Shown in pieces: positions 4,426 to 56,269 of a DNA stretch of 64,000 bases. The translations under genes and the position numbers were made by a program. Below the pieces are notes generated by a model that was not told the origin of the DNA, did not search any database, and worked only from the letters and a program-made list of their open reading frames with translations. Within the stretch, counting starts at the first letter, position 1. Each line of letters starts with the position of its first letter. Source of the stretch: Eubacteriales bacterium (GTDB lineage Bacteria; Bacillota; Clostridia; Oscillospirales; Oscillospiraceae); the NCBI GenBank assembly GCA_030536255.1, contig JAUNQI010000010.1, forward strand, positions 1-64,000, given 5' to 3'.

Positions 4426-7400
4426 GCGTCGATGGTGGAGATGGTAATGGTCGTCTCTTCCAGAACATCAAGAAGGACCTTTACCGTATCGAGCGCCGTA
4501 AACATCGTGATATTATATTCCGTGGCAAGGCAGCGGATCTTGTAGCCGTCGCTTGCCTGACCCAGAGAACCGACATCTCTCGTATTGATAACATACGCGA
4601 TATGGCCCTGACGGATCGCATCAAAGATCTCGTTGCTGTCCTCGAGCTTGGCGAGGGTATGGGTGCGGATCCCGTTCTTCTTCAGGAATTCCGAAGTACC
4701 CTCTGTTGCCTCGATATTGAAGCCGAGGTTATAGAAGCGGCGGATCAGCGGCAGCGCCTCGTCCTTATCCTTATCGGCGATGGTTGCGAAGACGGTACCG
4801 TAATTCTGGAGATGCATGCCGGAAGCCTGCAGCGCCTTGTACAGGGCACGGTTGAGCTTGTCATCATAGCCGATGGCCTCACCGGTGGACTTCATCTCCG
4901 GAGAGAGGTACGCGTCAAGACCTTTGATCTTGTTAAACGAGAAAACAGGAACCTTGACGTAGAAGCGGTCCTTCTCATCGGGATAGATATCGAAGAGACC
5001 GAGCTCCTTCAGGCTCTTGCCGAGGATGACCTCGGTAGCGATATCCGCAAGGCTGTAACCCGTTGCCTTGGAGAGGAACGGAACCGTGCGGGAGGAACGG
5101 GGATTGACCTCGATGATGTAAACATCGTCATTCCGGTCAACAATGAACTGGATATTGTAAAGGCCGACGATCCCGATCCCGAGACCGAGCTTTTTGGCAT
5201 ACTGAAGGATGATTCCCTTCACCTTGTCCGAAATGGAGAACGGCGGATAGACGCTGATAGAGTCTCCGCTGTGGATACCGGTACGCTCAACGAGCTCCAT
5301 GATGCCCGGAACGAAGACATTCCTTCCGTCGCAGATAGCGTCCACCTCGACTTCCTTGCCGATGATGTACTTATCCACGAGCACCGGCTTGTCCGCATCA
5401 ATCTCGACCGCCGTTTTCAGATACTGCCTGAGCTGCGGCTCGTTGGCGACGATCTGCATGGCTCTTCCGCCGAGAACAAAGCTCGGGCGCACCAGAACAG
5501 GATAGCCAATTGCTTCCGCCGCGCTGACGCCTTCTTCTATATTCGTTACGGCTCTGCCCTGCGGCTGGGGAATATGAAGCTCTTCCAGAACCTTTTCAAA
5601 GCTGTCGCGGTTTTCCGCGCGGTCAATTGCTTCGCAGTCGGTTCCGATGATCTTCACACCGCGGTCCATCAGCGGCTGGGCAAGGTTGATGGCCGTCTGT
5701 CCGCCGAGGGAGGCAATCACGCCCTCCGGCTTTTCAAATTCAATGATATTCATCACGTCCTCCGGCGTCAGCGGCTCAAAGTAGAGCTTGTCGGAGGTCG
5801 TATAGTCCGTTGAGACGGTCTCCGGATTGTTGTTGATAATGATTGCCTCATATCCGGCCTTTTTGATCGTCTGAACGGAATGGACCGTGGAATAGTCAAA
5901 TTCCACGCCCTGCCCGATACGGATGGGGCCGGCGCCCAGAACAACGATCTTCTTTTTCTCCGTCAGGATCGAGGAATTGTCTCCGGAATAGGAGGAATAG
6001 AAGTACGGAATATAGGCGTTGGTATGGCAGGTGTCCACCATCCGGAACACCGGGAACATTTTCATTTTCTTTCTCAGGTTAAAAATGCTGATCTCGGAGG
6101 TTCCGAGAAGCTTTGCGATATATTTATCGCTGAAGCCCATCTTCTTGGCTTCGCGAAGGACTTCGATATTGTCCGGATTCTCCGTGATCCGGCGTTCCAT
6201 CTTCACGATATTTTCCACCGCTTCCAGGAAAATGGCCGTGATCTGCGTCATCTCATGCAGCTTTTCAACGGTAACCCCTCTGCGGAAAAGCTCCGCTATC
6301 GCGAAGATATTGTCATCATGGAAGACCGACACATAGGAGAGGATCTCATCCTCCTCCATGGCATCAAACTTGGCCATATAGAAATGGCAGACCCCGATCT
6401 CCAGAGAACGGACGGACTTCAGCATGCACTCCTCGAGATTTGAGCCGATCCCCATGACCTCGCCTGTAGCCTTCATCTGCGTGCCGAGGGCATTCGGAGC
6501 ACTGGAGAACTTATCAAAGGGGAAGCGCGGGAACTTGGCGACGATATAATCCAGAGACGGCTCAAAGGCCGCATTGGTATTGGCAATGGTGATCTCCTCC
6601 AGCGTCATTCCCACAGCGATCTTCGCCGTTACACGGGCGATCGGATATCCGCTGGCCTTGGAAGCGAGGGCCGAGGAACGGGAAACACGGGGATTGACTT
6701 CGATCAGGAAATACTCGCTTGTCTCCGGATTCAGGGCAAACTGCACGTTGCAGCCGCCCTCGATCTTCAGCTCGCGGATGATCTTTATCGCGCTGTCATT
6801 GAGCATCTTGCGGTCATGGTCATTCAGGGAGAGGATCGGCGCTACGACGATGGAGTCGCCGGTATGCACGCCGACAGGATCGACATTTTCCATTCCGCAG
6901 ATCGTGATCGCATGGTCGGCGGAGTCACGCATAACTTCAAATTCGATCTCCTTATATCCCTTGACGGACTTTTCGATCAGGACCTGATGGACCGGGGAGA
7001 GACGGAACGCGTTCGTGCCGATCTCAACGAGCTCCTCCTCATTGTTGGCAAACCCGCCACCGGTTCCTCCCAGCGTAAAGGCAGGACGGAGAACAACGGG
7101 ATACCCGATATCCAGCGCGGCCTTCTTTGCCTCTTCCAGGCTGTAGGTGATCTCGGAGGGAATGGTGGGCTCGCCGATGGACTGGCACATCTCCTTGAAC
7201 AGCTCGCGGTCTTCCGCGCGCTCGATGCTGCTACTGTCTGTTCCGAGAAGCTCCACCTGACATTCGCGGAGGACGCCCTTCTTTTCCAGCTGAATGGCAA
7301 GATTCAGACCCGTCTGCCCGCCGATTCCGGGAACGATCGCATCGGGACGCTCATAGCGGAGGATCCTCGCCATATACTCGAGCGTGAGAGGCTCCATATA

Positions 7401-7613: not shown

Positions 7614-8858
7614 TTAATACACTCTGATGCCGCTGACGACCGTTTCGACACATCGGCCGAAAACATGTCTTCCCTCAAACGGCGTTGCCTTGCCCTGCGA
7701 AAGGAAATCGGCAGGGTCAATATCATATTCCGCGTTCAGATCCCACACCGTGTAATCGTTTCCGAGCGGGATATGAAATCTTCTGCGGGGGTTGATGCAG
7801 ATCAGTTCGATCAGTTTTTCCAGGGAGATCACATTCTTCTTTACAAGCTCCGTATACAGGCACGGGAAAGCGGTTTCCAGGCCAACGATTCCGAAAGCGC
7901 TTTTTTCCAAGCCGCGGCTCTTTTCCTCTGCGGAATGCGGGGCGTGATCCGTTGCAATGATTTCAATCGTTCCGTCTTTGATCCCTTCGATCAGGGCAAA
8001 CCGGTCCTCCTCGCTTCTGACGGGAGGATTCATCTTAAACTTTCCGTCCTCCTTCAGATCCGCATCCGTCAGGAGAAGATAATGCGGAGCCGTTTCACAG
8101 GAGACGTCCAGCCCTTCCGCTTTTGCCTGCCGGATCAGCTCAACGCTTTCTTTGGCGGAAACATGGCAGACATGATAGGCGCAGCCGGTTTCCCTCACGA
8201 GCTTTATATCCCGCTCGATCTGGCGGTATTCGCTTTCGGAACAGATCCCCCGGTGCCCGTGCGCTGCGGCATACGCGCCGGCATGGATATAGCCTCCGTT
8301 CAGGAGCTCGTTCACCTCGCAGTGCGCAACGATCATCTTTCCCTGCGCCTTTGCTGTAAGCATCGCGGAGCGCATCATTTCTTCGGACTGCACGCCCTTT
8401 CCGTCATCGGAAAAGGCAATGGCATCTCCGAGCTCCTCAAACCGGCTCAGCTCGGTTCCCTTCTCCCCTGCCGTTATAGAGGCATACGGGTAGACATCAA
8501 CCACGGCCTGAGAACGGATCAGATCCGTTTCCACCTTCAGATTTTCGGCGCAGTCCGGCACCGGATTCAGATTCGGCATCGGGCAGACCGCCGTAAAGCC
8601 GCCGCGCGCCGCCGCCATGGAACCGCTCCGGATCGTTTCCTTATAAGAAAAACCCGGCTCTCTGAAATGCACATGCACATCACAGAAACCGGGAAAAATA
8701 AAATATTCATTTTCGGGATAATTCATATCGGAACGGCTATCCGACAGAGAATAGCAATAATCCGGAAGACAAAAGCCGTCAATATAAAAAGGGAACAATT
8801 CCAGCCTGGAATTGTTCTTTATCGGCACAGATTCAATTCTGAAATCGATCGTCTGCAT
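7614..8858 (-). CDS. pyrC: Dihydroorotase
   Basis: Zinc amidohydrolase that cyclises carbamoyl aspartate to dihydroorotate. The metal-binding HxH is in GFCDVHVHFREPG (about residue 57-69); further active-site motifs are the CHVS, TAPHYLLLT and IIATDHAPHS segments, all expected of type I enzymes. I place the start at the ATG at 8858 (414 aa): GGAGAG lies seven bases upstream, and the promoter at 8919-8946 leaves a sensible leader. The alternative in-frame GTG at 8891 would sit only about 20 nt after the predicted transcription start. The N-terminal about 45 residues are somewhat long and poorly conserved. First gene of the pyr operon, 21 nt ahead of carB. Confidence 0.94.
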   Translation of the reverse strand: MQTIDFRIESVPIKNNSRLELFPFYIDGFCLPDYCYSLSDSRSDMNYPENEYFIFPGFCDVHVHFREPGFSYKETIRSGSMAAARGGFTAVCPMPNLNPVPDCAENLKVETDLIRSQAVVDVYPYASITAGEKGTELSRFEELGDAIAFSDDGKGVQSEEMMRSAMLTAKAQGKMIVAHCEVNELLNGGYIHAGAYAAAHGHRGICSESEYRQIERDIKLVRETGCAYHVCHVSAKESVELIRQAKAEGLDVSCETAPHYLLLTDADLKEDGKFKMNPPVRSEEDRFALIEGIKDGTIEIIATDHAPHSAEEKSRGLEKSAFGIVGLETAFPCLYTELVKKNVISLEKLIELICINPRRRFHIPLGNDYTVWDLNAEYDIDPADFLSQGKATPFEGRHVFGRCVETVVSGIRVY

Positions 8859-8918
8859 GTATACTCTCCAAAATCTTATTCCAAACGGCACCGCCGGACA
8901 GATCCTGTTATCGGTAAA

Positions 8919-8946
8919 AGTATACCATATTTCTCTCTTCTGTCAA
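8919..8946 (-). promoter_or_regulatory. Sigma-A promoter of the pyr operon
   Basis: TTGACA (8946-8941), a 16-nt spacer and TATACT (8924-8919) in the minus direction. Predicted transcription starts near 8912, giving a leader of only about 55 nt before pyrC. That is too short for a PyrR-style antiterminator/terminator pair, and no such structure is seen. Confidence 0.8.
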
Positions 8947-8960
8947 CAGGTGAATATCCG

Positions 8961-8990
8961 ACAAAAATCCCCGTGACGGGACGGGGATTT
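8961..8990 (-). terminator. Terminator after the MATE exporter gene
   Basis: A 10-bp GC-rich stem (8965-8974 with 8981-8990, 6-nt loop) followed on the minus strand by five T. It lies 23 nt beyond the stop of the exporter gene and just before the pyr promoter, so the two units are insulated. Confidence 0.8.
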
Positions 8991-9013
8991 CTGTTTGAAA
9001 TTTATGACATTTA

Positions 9014-10435
9014 TCAGGGGATCTCGGAACGGCTGCCTTCCGCTTCGGCTTCCGCGGCTTTCGATGCCATTTCTGCCGCGCGCTCGTCGGCCCGGCGAAA
9101 CAGCTTTTTCAGGACAAAGACCGCCGCAACGGCAAGAACGAGCTCCGCGCACAGCTGAGAGTAGGACAGACCGTAGAGAGGCCATATTTTGTTCAGGATA
9201 TACAGCGCCGGGATCTCCAGAGCGACTTTGCGTAGGACAGCAAAAAGGAAGGATTCCTTTCCCATTCCGACCGCCTGGAAAATTCCGACCGCCAGAAAAT
9301 CCACGCAGAGGAACGGAAGCCCCAGACAGAAGCCTCTCAGGAAGTCCGTGCCGTAGGAAACGATGCTTTCCGTCTTCATAAAAAGGGAGATCATCGGCCC
9401 GGCAAAGAAATAGTACAAGGCGGTTGCGATCACGATAAAGCCAACGGAGAGCTTCGCGGTAAACGTGATGGCCTTCTTCATTCTCTCCGAGTTGCCGGAG
9501 GAATAGTTATAGCCGACCAGCGGCATGATTCCCTGGCCGAGTCCCATGGAAATATACATGGGAACCATGTTGATCTTATGGGTGATGCCCATTGCGGCAA
9601 CGGCATCGGTACCGTAGGCGGAGGTGAAGTTGTTCAGCACCGTCATGCCGGTCACGTTGAGGAGATTCTGCACCGCGGCGGGAACACCGACGGCGGCCAC
9701 GGAGGAGATGATCTTCTTATCAAAGCGGAATTTGCGGGGATCAATGGAAACAAAGGTCTTTCCGCGCCTGACAAAGAGAAAGATCAGGAAATACGCGCAG
9801 GCGACGCAGTTGGAAATAAACGTGGCGCAGCCCGCTCCGGAGGCGCCCATTCCAAGGCCCCACGGCATAATGAAGACAGGGTCCAGAACCACATTGAGCA
9901 GGCAGCCGCTGATGGTTCCGATACTGGCGTGAAGAGACTCTCCTTCCGAACGGATGAGGTTTGCCAGAACCAGATTCAGGATGGACGGAGCCGCACCGAG
10001 GACGACCGTCCAGAACATATACCGGGAGGTGGCGGAAACAGTTTCCTCCGCCGCACCGAGAAGACGCAGAAGCGGAGACTGAAAGACCGCACAGCCAAGA
10101 GAATACAGCAGCGAAAAGCAAAGCGCGCAGTAAAAGCCGTAAACGGATGTGCGCTTAACCGTCTCATAATCCTTTATTCCCAGTGCGCGGCTCATATAGC
10201 TGCTGCAGCCGACGCCGAAAAGATTGATCACCGCATTGAATGCCAGAAGTACCGGGGCCGCCAGCGTGACCGCGGCGCTCTCCACCGGATCATTCAGGGC
10301 TCCGACAAAATAGGTATCCGCGAGATTATAGAGCACCATAATCAGCGTACTGAGCACAGTAGGAACCGAAAGCTTTGCAACAGCTTTCGGGATGGGCATG
10401 GTTTCAAAGAGTTCTGTTTTGCTTGCTTTGGTCAT
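9014..10435 (-). CDS. MATE-family multidrug/sodium antiporter
   Basis: A 473-residue inner-membrane protein with about twelve hydrophobic segments in two six-helix halves, typical of NorM/DinF-like MATE exporters. Family segments include PTVLSTLIMVLYNLADTYFV in helix 1 and GLGQGIMPLVGYNYSSGN between the halves, the latter a conserved MATE stretch. Such proteins expel cationic compounds in exchange for Na+ or H+; the substrate here is unknown. The C terminus carries an Ala/Glu-rich cytoplasmic tail (about residue 445-473). GGGAAGGA precedes the ATG. The gene starts 24 nt after the CPBP protease gene and probably shares its transcript. Confidence 0.9.
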   Translation of the reverse strand: MTKASKTELFETMPIPKAVAKLSVPTVLSTLIMVLYNLADTYFVGALNDPVESAAVTLAAPVLLAFNAVINLFGVGCSSYMSRALGIKDYETVKRTSVYGFYCALCFSLLYSLGCAVFQSPLLRLLGAAEETVSATSRYMFWTVVLGAAPSILNLVLANLIRSEGESLHASIGTISGCLLNVVLDPVFIMPWGLGMGASGAGCATFISNCVACAYFLIFLFVRRGKTFVSIDPRKFRFDKKIISSVAAVGVPAAVQNLLNVTGMTVLNNFTSAYGTDAVAAMGITHKINMVPMYISMGLGQGIMPLVGYNYSSGNSERMKKAITFTAKLSVGFIVIATALYYFFAGPMISLFMKTESIVSYGTDFLRGFCLGLPFLCVDFLAVGIFQAVGMGKESFLFAVLRKVALEIPALYILNKIWPLYGLSYSQLCAELVLAVAAVFVLKKLFRRADERAAEMASKAAEAEAEGSRSEIP

Positions 10436-14101: not shown

Positions 14102-15829
14102 TTATTTATGAAACCCGATAATTGTGTTGTTTTGCTTCATAATTTGGGCATAACGGAATTCATCGGACAGCATCAGTGCCATTCGTGTTCCGATAAATTT
14201 ATACGGAGTTTCATCATTCAGGGTCCATTCCTCCGCTCTCCTGCGTAAATCATTCAGCGGACAGTTGTCACAGATTCGCAGAATGATCTGCTCATCTGTC
14301 AGAATCATTTTCATGTTTACGATCGGATCCGCGATTCGATACTCTTTTCCATGATTCAGAAGACAGATTGCAAGTTCCTCAGCGCACAGAGAAACAGAAA
14401 AGCACAACCGTGAAGAAATACCACGGTTTGCGCAAAAGGCCCCTGCCTCGGAAGAGAAAGCGACAGCCTGTTCCGCAGTTCTGATTTCAGCACAAATCAT
14501 GTTCTTCTCCGAAATCTTAAGCAGACCATTCTGACGTTTTTCACGCAGGAACAGTACAGAACTCAAAAGAGCGGACAGAACTTCTGCACCGACAAGAGAA
14601 ACGAACACGCCCACATTCCCTTTACCGAAAACAAGAAGAAATATACAGGGAAACACACAGCCCTTTACAAGATTCAGCAAGGAACTGATGGCAGACTTTT
14701 TGAAAGCCTGCAAACCTTTTAGCGTTGCAAGGAACAAGGCGGAAAACGGAATTTGAATACTGATCGCAAGGATTGCGATTTGTGCACAGCGAAGGACATC
14801 CGCCGCATGGTCCGCTGTGTAAAACAATGCAAGAGGACGGGAAACTGCTGCCAGCAGACAACAGACCGGAACCATGGAAGTAATGACCCAAAGGGAACTT
14901 CGGAATACCTGATTGACAGATGTTCTGTCGCATTCTCCGGTGTACAGCCCTATAAGAAGCAGCGTTGTGTCGCCGACAGCGCAGCAGATAGTATTACTGA
15001 ATAGCGCAATATTCTTAAAAACCGCCACACCAAACATTGCTTCCATTCCGGCTCCGGAGATGATCAGGCTGTTGATCAGTTTATTTCCGAAAAATGCAGC
15101 CAGAGCATATACAGTTTGAGAGTATCCCAATCGAAACAGCTGCGGTATATATTCGAATCTGATGGATGGACGAAGAGAAAACAGCCTGCCGCTTCCAGAA
15201 TAATAAAGCAAAAGAACAGCCGCTCCGCCGACATAACTGATTGAAGTTGCAATACCCATTCCGATCAGTCCGCCCCGGAACAGAAACACATTCAAGAGAT
15301 CTCCGATAATATTCAAAGCACATGTAGTGATACCGGAAATGCGAACGATTCCAGTTCCACCGTCCATCTGCAGCGGACCCATGGAAACGCTTAGAAAGTT
15401 ATAAAAAACATTACCGGTAAACAGGGCACGGAGATAGCCCGCTGTCTCCGGCATCAGATAAGCTGCCTCTCCTTTCGCCCCGAGAAATGCTGCGAATGAT
15501 TCGGAATATACAACACCTGCGACCGAGACCAGTGCCGACAGGAGAAAAGAGATCCACACGGTTGTAGAAAAAACACTTTTCGCCTCGTCCGTGCGCCCCT
15601 GCCCGATTTTTTCAGAACATAGTATCTGATTACCCGTATCCAGCAAATAACTCAGAGTACTATTCAATATGAAATATGGAGTCGCAATTGTGTAAGCGGT
15701 CATTGCGTCTACACCGAGAAATACGCTTGTCAGGATACCGTCAATAAAGCCGGCCATCATGCTTGAGCTTCTGATATATACTGCGGTTACAAAAGCATTC
15801 CGATAGGTTCTGCCAATTCTATTTTTCAT
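14102..15829 (-). CDS. MATE transporter fused to a C-terminal GHKL (RsbW-like) ATPase domain
   Basis: A 575-residue protein, about 110-130 residues longer than an ordinary MATE exporter. Residues about 1-435 are twelve-helix MATE (start AGFIDGILTSVFLG, middle RISGITTCALNIIGDLLNV). Residues about 440-575 are soluble and resemble the anti-sigma-factor/histidine-kinase ATPase fold: an N-box-like CAEELAICLLNHG (482-494), a G1-like LRICDNCPLND (518-528) and a G2-like KFIGTRMALML. The usual glycines of G1 are reduced, so ATP binding is uncertain. GGAAAG precedes the ATG at 15829. It follows the nucleotidyltransferase-like gene by 30 nt on the same strand. Function unknown; the domain reading is inference from motif order and spacing. 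Confidence 0.75.
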   Translation of the reverse strand: MKNRIGRTYRNAFVTAVYIRSSSMMAGFIDGILTSVFLGVDAMTAYTIATPYFILNSTLSYLLDTGNQILCSEKIGQGRTDEAKSVFSTTVWISFLLSALVSVAGVVYSESFAAFLGAKGEAAYLMPETAGYLRALFTGNVFYNFLSVSMGPLQMDGGTGIVRISGITTCALNIIGDLLNVFLFRGGLIGMGIATSISYVGGAAVLLLYYSGSGRLFSLRPSIRFEYIPQLFRLGYSQTVYALAAFFGNKLINSLIISGAGMEAMFGVAVFKNIALFSNTICCAVGDTTLLLIGLYTGECDRTSVNQVFRSSLWVITSMVPVCCLLAAVSRPLALFYTADHAADVLRCAQIAILAISIQIPFSALFLATLKGLQAFKKSAISSLLNLVKGCVFPCIFLLVFGKGNVGVFVSLVGAEVLSALLSSVLFLREKRQNGLLKISEKNMICAEIRTAEQAVAFSSEAGAFCANRGISSRLCFSVSLCAEELAICLLNHGKEYRIADPIVNMKMILTDEQIILRICDNCPLNDLRRRAEEWTLNDETPYKFIGTRMALMLSDEFRYAQIMKQNNTIIGFHK

Positions 15830-15859: not shown

Positions 15860-16891
15860 TTATTCCTGCTGATAATAATACCGTGTATAATCTTTTAACT
15901 GTCTGAACGGCTCTCTGCACAGCATTACGGATTCTTTTTTACCATCATGCTCCCAGCAGAGAATATCCCCGCAGCCTTCTATGACATTTCCTTTCCTGAT
16001 TGTGGCGTGAAAAAAAGTCTCAGCAAGAAGTACATAAGAAAAATCGCTATTTTCTACCTTAAAAAAAGGCTCCATCTGCAAGGCATACGTGTCATCCGTA
16101 ACACGGCAACGGAAGGATACATTCTCACAAATCATCTCGGCCGAGTGCAGATTGTTCCGGTTGAAATCCTCACAAACATAAAAAGCGTCTACAAGTTGCT
16201 CCCGGAATAAGAATCGGAACGGCAGAGGCAGCCCGTACGCCTGCGGCACGCCCTGTTTTTGGTTGATGTTGATAACGGTATTGTGGATTCTTCGGAGTTC
16301 CTCGGCATTCCCGTAAAAGACAATGTCGTAATCACTTGACTTTTCGGCGCCCAATGCCGCTGACCCGGCCAGCCCCATCTGTTCGGGGGATACTTCAAAT
16401 CTTTTTCCCAACGCGGCAACATAGGAACGGAAATCCGCATCCTCGCAGCACAGGCGTATCATGGCTGCCCTCGGGTCTATAATTTCAATAACATCCGCAC
16501 ATTCAAAACAGGTGTAGGATTGTAAAAACGAGGAATGAAACCGAGGAATGCTGTCCGGTCGGTAGCGGTACGGGAGCTCTCTGATCTGCCGGTTATCCAG
16601 AGAAACATTCCGAACACCGTCTTTCCTTATGGTTGTTTTTATCATAGGGATTCCACACTGTGTTTTTCGAAACGGAAAATCGGAACGCATCTCTTCCCGG
16701 ATATTGTTTTCACTTACGTAAAGACAAGTGCCAAAAAACTGATCCTCATTGTTCTGGAAAAGATAATTGCACGGCGCACAGATCACGGCGGAGGTATCAT
16801 ACTTCCTGCTGTGAATCAGATAATACAGAATATCGTTTGAATCATTCAGTGCTCTGCATTTTTTCAGAATATCTAAATCACTCATTTTCAT
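15860..16891 (-). CDS. Nucleotidyltransferase-fold protein of unknown function
   Basis: A 343-residue soluble protein. Residues 174-190 read LAGSAALGAEKSSDYDI, the GS...D-x-D signature of the polymerase-beta-like nucleotidyltransferase superfamily (G176, S177; acidic pair D187 and D189); D235 in QLVDAFYV could be the third metal ligand. The first about 165 residues match nothing I know, but contain several cysteines and a conserved-looking FHSSFLQSYTCFECADVIE stretch. The combined layout recalls uncharacterised predicted nucleotidyltransferases (COG1665-like), with low certainty. The start at 16891 follows GGGGTTGAG; an ATG two codons later is possible. It probably forms an operon with the MATE-ATPase gene downstream. 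Confidence 0.6.
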   Translation of the reverse strand: MKMSDLDILKKCRALNDSNDILYYLIHSRKYDTSAVICAPCNYLFQNNEDQFFGTCLYVSENNIREEMRSDFPFRKTQCGIPMIKTTIRKDGVRNVSLDNRQIRELPYRYRPDSIPRFHSSFLQSYTCFECADVIEIIDPRAAMIRLCCEDADFRSYVAALGKRFEVSPEQMGLAGSAALGAEKSSDYDIVFYGNAEELRRIHNTVININQKQGVPQAYGLPLPFRFLFREQLVDAFYVCEDFNRNNLHSAEMICENVSFRCRVTDDTYALQMEPFFKVENSDFSYVLLAETFFHATIRKGNVIEGCGDILCWEHDGKKESVMLCREPFRQLKDYTRYYYQQE

Positions 16892-54904: not shown

Positions 54905-56269
54905 ATGACGATAAAAGATGTTGCCAAAAACAAGTCCTTCTGGAGATCACTTCTGACGCTTGTCATACCAATCACCATACAATCTTTTCTTTCCAATGCC
55001 GTCAACTCTGCGGATGTGGTAATGATTGGGAAGGTCGGACAGACGGAGCTTTCCGCAGTATCGCTGGCGAACCAGTTTCAGTTTCTTCTTTTTGGTCTGG
55101 CCTACGGTCTGAACTCCGGCATCACAATGCTTGTATCTCAGTACTGGGGGAAAAAGGATACAAAAGCAATTGAAATTGTCCTTGGCATTGCGCTGAAAAT
55201 CGGCTTTGTTATCTCTCTGATCATTACGCTGAGCACAATGTTCCTTCCGGGAACGATGATGCGCATCTATACGTCAGATGAAGAGCTGATTGAGATCGGA
55301 AGCGTTTATCTCCGTACGCTCGGCCCGGCATATCTTCTCTGTGCTCTCTCGGCTGCCTATCAGGCAATGCTGCGCAGCGTTGAGCGTGCCGCAAAGGCAA
55401 CGGTTTTCTCTTCCTGTGCCCTCGTGCTGAATGTTTTTCTGAATGCTGTGCTGATTTTCGGCCTTTTTGGTCTTCCTGCAATGGGGGTAAAAGGAGCCGC
55501 CCTTGCTACCCTGATTGCAAGAGCGGTAGAATTTATTTTGTGTCTGGCAGACGCCGTCAGCGGCAGAACGATGCGCTTTCATCTCCGAACCGTGCTGGGA
55601 CATAACAAAGCTCTCACGAAGGATTACTTCCGCTTTGCTGTTCCGGCAGCGCTGGGTGATATTTTATGGACCGTCGCCTTCTCCACCTATTCTGTTATTA
55701 TGGGGCATCTGAATGCAGATGTCGTAGCGGCAAACTCCGTTGCGGTAACCGTTCGGGATCTCTGCACGGTAATTGCCTATGCCATCGGCGGTGGCGCCTG
55801 CGTAATGATCGGGATCAAGATTGGGGAAGGATGCCTGGAAGAAGCCCGCGTACAGGCAGATCTTTTCTGCTGGCTGTCTATGGGAGTCGGGGTTCTTACC
55901 TGCATTGTGATCCTCCTGATCCGGCCATTCATCCTCCGGTATTTCGAGCTGACGGAACGGGCGCAAAGTTATCTCAATATCATGCTGATCATCAGTTCTT
56001 ACTATGTCATCGGTCAGATCATGAACACGCTGTGGATCGGCGGCATCTTCCGATGCGGCGGGAATACGAAATGGGGACTTATCTGCGATACCGTAACCAT
56101 GTGGGGTGTCAGTGTTCCGCTTGGATTTCTCAGCGCCTTTGTTTTCAAGTTTCCCCCGATGGTCGTGTATTTTATCCTATGCCTCGATGAATTCTGGAAA
56201 ATTCCGATCGTTTACAAACATTACAAAAGCTATATCTGGCTGAAGGATATCACCCGTGAAATCGTCTGA
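54905..56269 (+). CDS. MATE-family exporter (DinF-like)
   Basis: A 454-residue twelve-helix MATE protein. Its start, LVIPITIQSFLSNAVNSADVVMIG, the repeated GLNSGITMLVSQYWGKKD and the GFLSAFVFKFPPMVV segment near the end match NorM/DinF-like exporters. It is only loosely similar to the two other MATE proteins in the window and has no ATPase tail. The ATG has GAGGAG eleven bases upstream. It stands alone between a long A+T-rich leader (54652-54904; a T-rich stretch near 54748-54780, nothing else recognised) and a strong terminator. Confidence 0.9.
   Translation: MTIKDVAKNKSFWRSLLTLVIPITIQSFLSNAVNSADVVMIGKVGQTELSAVSLANQFQFLLFGLAYGLNSGITMLVSQYWGKKDTKAIEIVLGIALKIGFVISLIITLSTMFLPGTMMRIYTSDEELIEIGSVYLRTLGPAYLLCALSAAYQAMLRSVERAAKATVFSSCALVLNVFLNAVLIFGLFGLPAMGVKGAALATLIARAVEFILCLADAVSGRTMRFHLRTVLGHNKALTKDYFRFAVPAALGDILWTVAFSTYSVIMGHLNADVVAANSVAVTVRDLCTVIAYAIGGGACVMIGIKIGEGCLEEARVQADLFCWLSMGVGVLTCIVILLIRPFILRYFELTERAQSYLNIMLIISSYYVIGQIMNTLWIGGIFRCGGNTKWGLICDTVTMWGVSVPLGFLSAFVFKFPPMVVYFILCLDEFWKIPIVYKHYKSYIWLKDITREIV

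Follow-up and report, generated by a model that had tools for sequence, protein, structure and literature searches.

What could a domain related to the anti-sigma switch kinases RsbW and SpoIIAB do at the C-terminal end of a MATE exporter? Partner switching is known mainly for freeing sigma factors or otherwise controlling gene expression. The question is raised by one gene of the window analysed here, a stretch of 64,000 nucleotides from the genome of an Eubacteriales bacterium. A sequence-only reading had described its product as a MATE exporter fused to a GHKL-type ATPase domain of the RsbW type, which might gate transport by nucleotide binding or sequester a regulator on the membrane, possibly as a one-protein sensing system. 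The features of the locus are as follows.

14102..15829, minus strand: MATE transporter fused to an RsbW/SpoIIAB-like tail, 575 residues (the focal protein)
14531..15829, minus strand: MATE transport domain, residues 1-433 (Pfam MatE; all-helical model)
14105..14512, minus strand: RsbW-like C-terminal domain, residues 440-575 (HATPase_c_2 match and predicted structure)
15860..16891, minus strand: 343-residue protein of no recognised family, directly upstream of the focal gene with a 30-bp gap

Architecture of the fusion protein

The reading frame of the focal gene is intact and starts with ATG. The Pfam MatE domain matches the protein above cut-off in two stretches (E=1.1e-20; best stretch, residues 25-177), and in the full-length AlphaFold2 model (pLDDT 93, pTM 0.91) the transport part is an all-helical membrane bundle, with helices from residue 2 to residue 434. 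Residues 1-433 share with the MATE exporters (NorM, MepA, FepA, VmrA-like) both the MatE domains and the Asp residue of TM1. The acidic TM1 residue of MATE transporters has a role in ion coupling; it is Asp30 in the focal protein, and an Asp is found at this position in 43 of 53 homologues. Unlike the known exporters, the focal protein scores under the NCBIfam cut-offs and has approximately 140 additional residues. Two other MATE genes lie in the window. The first (9014-10435, minus strand) was checked and is ordinary and unfused, and the second (about 54968-55447, plus strand) has a 465-residue frame that leaves no room for a tail.

The sequence match of the tail is weak by itself, as HATPase_c_2 aligns with residues 452-568 at E=8.5e-4 and 19.8 bits, under its gathering cut-off of 27.4 bits. 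The predicted fold nevertheless confirms the fusion, and with it the identity first proposed for the tail. The alignments used for structure prediction comprised 50-53 relatives, and the model of the tail, based on 50 sequences, has a pLDDT of 92 and a pTM of 0.86. Its best structural match is RsbW (6m37; Z 15.8, rmsd 1.8 Å over 113 residues), followed by UsfX (8ih8; Z 15.3) and SpoIIAB (1th8; Z 15.2). The likeness to these switch kinases extends along the whole tail domain at Z scores of 14-16, whereas histidine kinases reach only about 8, which rules out a GHKL domain of the histidine kinase type. A chance match of hydrophilic sequence is likewise ruled out by the predicted structure.

An old subfamily of fused MATE proteins

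Five full-length MATE-tail fusions are encoded in the 2.39 Mb genome that harbours the focal gene, with pairwise identities of 21-29%. Profile searches of 147 genomes from the order identified fusions in 16 and, counting only matches that span the MATE-tail junction, those of 391 genomes from the class did so in about two dozen; others were found in further classes of the phylum. A scan of 84,980 species with two short motifs yielded 420 encoded relatives; the 80 that were kept share 55% identity or more with the query and come mostly from rumen or gut Clostridia. Since the focal genome encodes five paralogues and other genomes, those of gut and rumen Clostridia included, several hundred further loci, we rejected the idea that the fusion is a unique or recent event.

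A tree built from 91 MATE domains has a single branch (SH-aLRT 100) that separates 52 fused domains from the 39 ordinary ones sampled. One long-branched plain copy that fell among the fused proteins in an earlier tree of 103 domains was excluded from this analysis. The pattern fits one old fusion, with the ordinary MATEs represented by only 39 sequences. A literature search returned no paper on MATE-HATPase fusions, a weak absence since subscription journals were mostly outside the search. MATE exporters with RsbW-like tails are thus a widespread and apparently undescribed group in gut clostridia, and it is this family, rather than the focal gene, that is the point of interest.

Association with partner-switch genes

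Analyses of the genetic environments linked the fusions with partner-switch genes. A STAS or PP2C gene is present within 5 kb in 60 of 128 fused loci, compared with none of 32 ordinary MATE loci (0/17 and 0/15, the second set coming from genomes that also carry fusions). For genes on the same strand and within 5 kb, the proportions are 29/59 for the loci found with profiles (Fisher p 1.7e-7 vs 0/32 unfused) and 31/69 for those of the motif scan (p 4.6e-7 vs 0/32), and p was 2.3e-4 when the control was restricted to unfused MATEs from genomes that also carry fusions (0/15); the samples of fused loci overlap and contain related sequences, so that these p values overstate independence and are indicative. 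Roughly every second fused locus has no STAS or PP2C gene within 5 kb.

The partner-switch modules in which fused MATEs are often found have three parts: a STAS protein, a PP2C phosphatase of the SpoIIE type and a kinase of the RsbW type, which can be free, joined to the PP2C or contained in a STAS::APH::HATPase protein. The acceptor serine lies in an SSAGLR motif in all 33 short STAS partners listed. The proximity of STAS and SpoIIE-type PP2C genes is a feature that the tails share with RsbW and SpoIIAB; unlike for these kinases, no sigma factor was identified as a target of the MATE tails. These neighbourhoods fit the suggestion of a STAS partner or a regulator held at the membrane. They lend no support to a one-protein sensing system, since in the informative loci the fusion is part of a multi-protein module.

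Several other genes recur in these loci. On contig C64 of the same genome (locus L009, 34-8761), an operon-like array encodes a PCP-reductase (540 aa), an NRPS (1052 aa), a MATE::HATPase fusion, a PP2C::HATPase protein and a STAS protein. Fusions directly downstream of NRPS genes are found in a subclade made up of this locus, L154 and L156. A similar cluster of NRPS, MatE, two serine phosphatases and an anti-sigma antagonist was reported in Methanobrevibacter ruminantium M1 (mru0066-0071; PMC2812497); the part of that report dealing with the cluster treats the regulators as controlling NRPS expression and does not mention a tail on the MatE protein.

In several proteins (L041, 7230-8816; L145, 7318-8526; L278, 1495-2664; L279, 1477-2658), a STAS domain is joined to a phosphotransferase of the APH type, in some cases followed by a C-terminal RsbW-like kinase; such proteins recur beside MATE fusions and are encoded twice elsewhere in the focal genome. 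Upstream of several fusions are genes for proteins of approximately 200 residues with no Pfam match (L041, 12420-13037; L274, 6351-6983), whose N-terminus resembles a divergent RsbW-like domain by eye. Lastly, one branch of fusions (L054, 6815-7681 and 9553-10359; L056) is flanked by genes of the LPG_synthase_C and GNAT types, which adjoin PP2C and kinase genes. The substrate of these exporters might accordingly be lipid-linked or modified.

Erosion of the kinase motifs

The catalytic base of SpoIIAB is Glu46; Mg is bound through Asn50, Arg105 serves to stabilise the transition state, and the nucleotide is contacted by Gly107 and Gly109 (PMC10345196). A profile alignment places Glu485 of the focal protein at the position of Glu46 and Cys489 at that of Asn50, with Asp521 and Cys523 corresponding to the Asp-x-Gly of G1. 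The three boxes of the tail are as follows.

14348..14380, minus strand: N-box-like EELAICLLNHG, residues 484-494, with Glu485 kept and Asn replaced by Cys489
14249..14269, minus strand: G1-like box DNCPLND, residues 521-527, with Asp521 kept and Gly replaced by Cys523
14174..14194, minus strand: G2-like box IGTRMAL, residues 546-552, without Gly-x-Gly and without the lid Arg

The claim that N-, G1- and G2-like boxes are present thus holds for the N-box Glu and the G1 Asp; the Asn, the G1 Gly and the Gly-x-Gly of G2 are missing.

We compared 56 MATE tails with 52 co-encoded kinases in one alignment. The N-box Glu is present in all proteins of both groups, and in 53/53 sequences of the homologue set. 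By contrast, the lid Arg is found in 4/56 tails and in 51/52 kinases, and hardly any tail has the first Gly of G2, which 51/52 kinases keep; the lid aligns as a variable loop in which single residues may be shifted, to which the pattern over 56 sequences is less sensitive. The G1 Gly is kept in 15/56 tails, often being replaced by Cys, compared with 52/52 kinases. The Mg-binding Asn of the N-box is present in about 60% of the tails (34/53). Thus, of the two N-box residues that had been singled out for checking in homologues, the Glu is invariant, and the Asn is kept in many relatives but lost from the focal protein and about a third of the homologues. As the four other members of the focal subclade retain this Asn, its loss is recent on the focal lineage. 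Across the family, loss of the Asn is not tied to missing partner genes: partners are found in 16/33 loci with the Asn and in 12/17 without it.

Fused to a transporter and nearly all devoid of the lid Arg and Gly-x-Gly, the MATE tails thus differ from RsbW and SpoIIAB, and judging from their sequences they are probably RsbW-derived domains that have lost kinase activity. RsbW Glu49 contacts the acceptor Ser56 of RsbV (PMC7340262), so the invariance of the corresponding Glu in the tails is consistent with STAS docking without catalysis. Two other RsbW residues that contact RsbV, Arg23 and Asp42, show no obvious conservation in the tails. The simplest reading of the motifs would be a pseudokinase with its docking side retained.

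Could the tail instead be an active membrane kinase that phosphorylates the STAS protein as the MATE part senses substrate flux, which would place the transporter at the sensing end of the switch rather than at its output? The invariant N-box Glu, the G1 Asp kept in most tails, the Asn of 34/53 homologues and the co-occurrence with STAS and PP2C genes would agree with this. Nevertheless, we consider it unlikely, because the lid Arg and the Gly-x-Gly of G2 are gone in nearly all tails, the modules often already hold a canonical kinase, and the focal copy is devoid of the Mg-binding Asn. An exporter switched by ATP binding to the tail appears very improbable. The GHKL fold speaks for it, as do the Asn and the Asp that many homologues retain, and with the Asn present in about 60% of the tails, some members of the family may still bind nucleotide. 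However, the ATP lid of the subfamily has lost its Arg and its Gly-x-Gly, the G1 Gly is often missing too, and the focal protein has no Asn. The nucleotide gating first envisaged is thereby weakened, and we read the tail as a putative docking domain for a partner switch, probably inactive, rather than as an ATP-gated sensor.

The neighbourhoods and the motif loss that argue for docking would be equally expected if the tail only tethered a regulator, such as a STAS protein, to the membrane and left transport unregulated; a tail without kinase activity does not have to act on the transporter at all. However, the tail and the MATE domain have stayed fused across a very divergent family, which weakly suggests that they are coupled, and we regard localisation or sequestration alone as unlikely.

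The focal gene as an orphan member

No STAS, PP2C or kinase gene was found in the neighbourhood of the focal gene, and no orthologue above 30% identity was detected among 60 genomes of its genus. The 343-residue protein encoded upstream (15860-16891, minus strand), whose gene is possibly co-transcribed with the focal gene, has no match in Pfam, NCBIfam or PHROG. It was rejected as a switch partner, since it belongs to no family and adjoins no other fusion; by eye, it appears to harbour a nucleotidyltransferase-like GS...DYD motif. The genome encodes four STAS domains, three of them with SSAGLR, and six SpoIIE-type matches in all, making a partner in trans possible.

The orphan position, the long branch of the focal copy (1.3-1.7) and the loss of an Asn that its subclade retains might also indicate a decaying paralogue whose tail no longer functions. 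The frame is nonetheless open and the full-length fold confidently predicted, and the family-invariant Glu484, Glu485 and Asn567 of the tail are all kept, as is Asp30 of TM1. We regard decay as highly improbable, and place the focal copy in an old subfamily of MATE fusions, as a divergent member and an orphan. It is a poor experimental representative of the five paralogues; the modules of L048 (STAS 5845-6141, fusion 7658-9415) or of L009 on contig C64 (STAS 8465-8761, fusion 4865-6577) are better suited.

A proposed partner switch with an exporter as output

The mechanism that we propose is drawn from relatives of the focal gene that are better placed than the focal locus itself. An RsbW-type kinase, free or fused, would phosphorylate the STAS protein, and the SpoIIE-type PP2C phosphatase would strip the phosphate. 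Once unphosphorylated, the STAS protein could dock at the inner face of the membrane, with the RsbW-like tail of the exporter as its receptor, and thereby change transport, such that the output of the switch would be an exporter instead of a sigma factor. For the focal copy, the STAS protein would have to be encoded elsewhere in the genome. The analysis shows the fusion, its fold, the family, the association with partner-switch genes and the motif loss; docking of a STAS protein, the gating of export and the partner of the focal copy are inferred.

With roughly even confidence, we propose an old MATE subfamily with an RsbW-derived, probably kinase-dead tail, in which STAS docking gates export and of which the focal protein is an orphan member. 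A little short of even confidence, we suggest that the whole subfamily may be a direct output of partner switching, the pseudokinase tail receiving the unphosphorylated STAS protein to open or close export, sometimes of a nonribosomal peptide made by neighbouring enzymes.

The SulP/SLC26 anion transporters, with their C-terminal STAS domain, likewise carry a domain of the partner-switch type at their cytoplasmic end (PMC8256260). They bear the STAS side of the switch, whereas the fused MATEs bear the RsbW side, on a MATE fold; if our proposal is correct, the latter would mirror the SulP arrangement. An exporter family with a built-in RsbW side, an eroded active site and associated STAS, PP2C and kinase modules suggests post-translational control of efflux. 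Thus, switches of the RsbW type may control the activity of export pumps as well, turning them on or off, which, if true, would represent a new mode of regulation of MATE exporters in gut bacteria.
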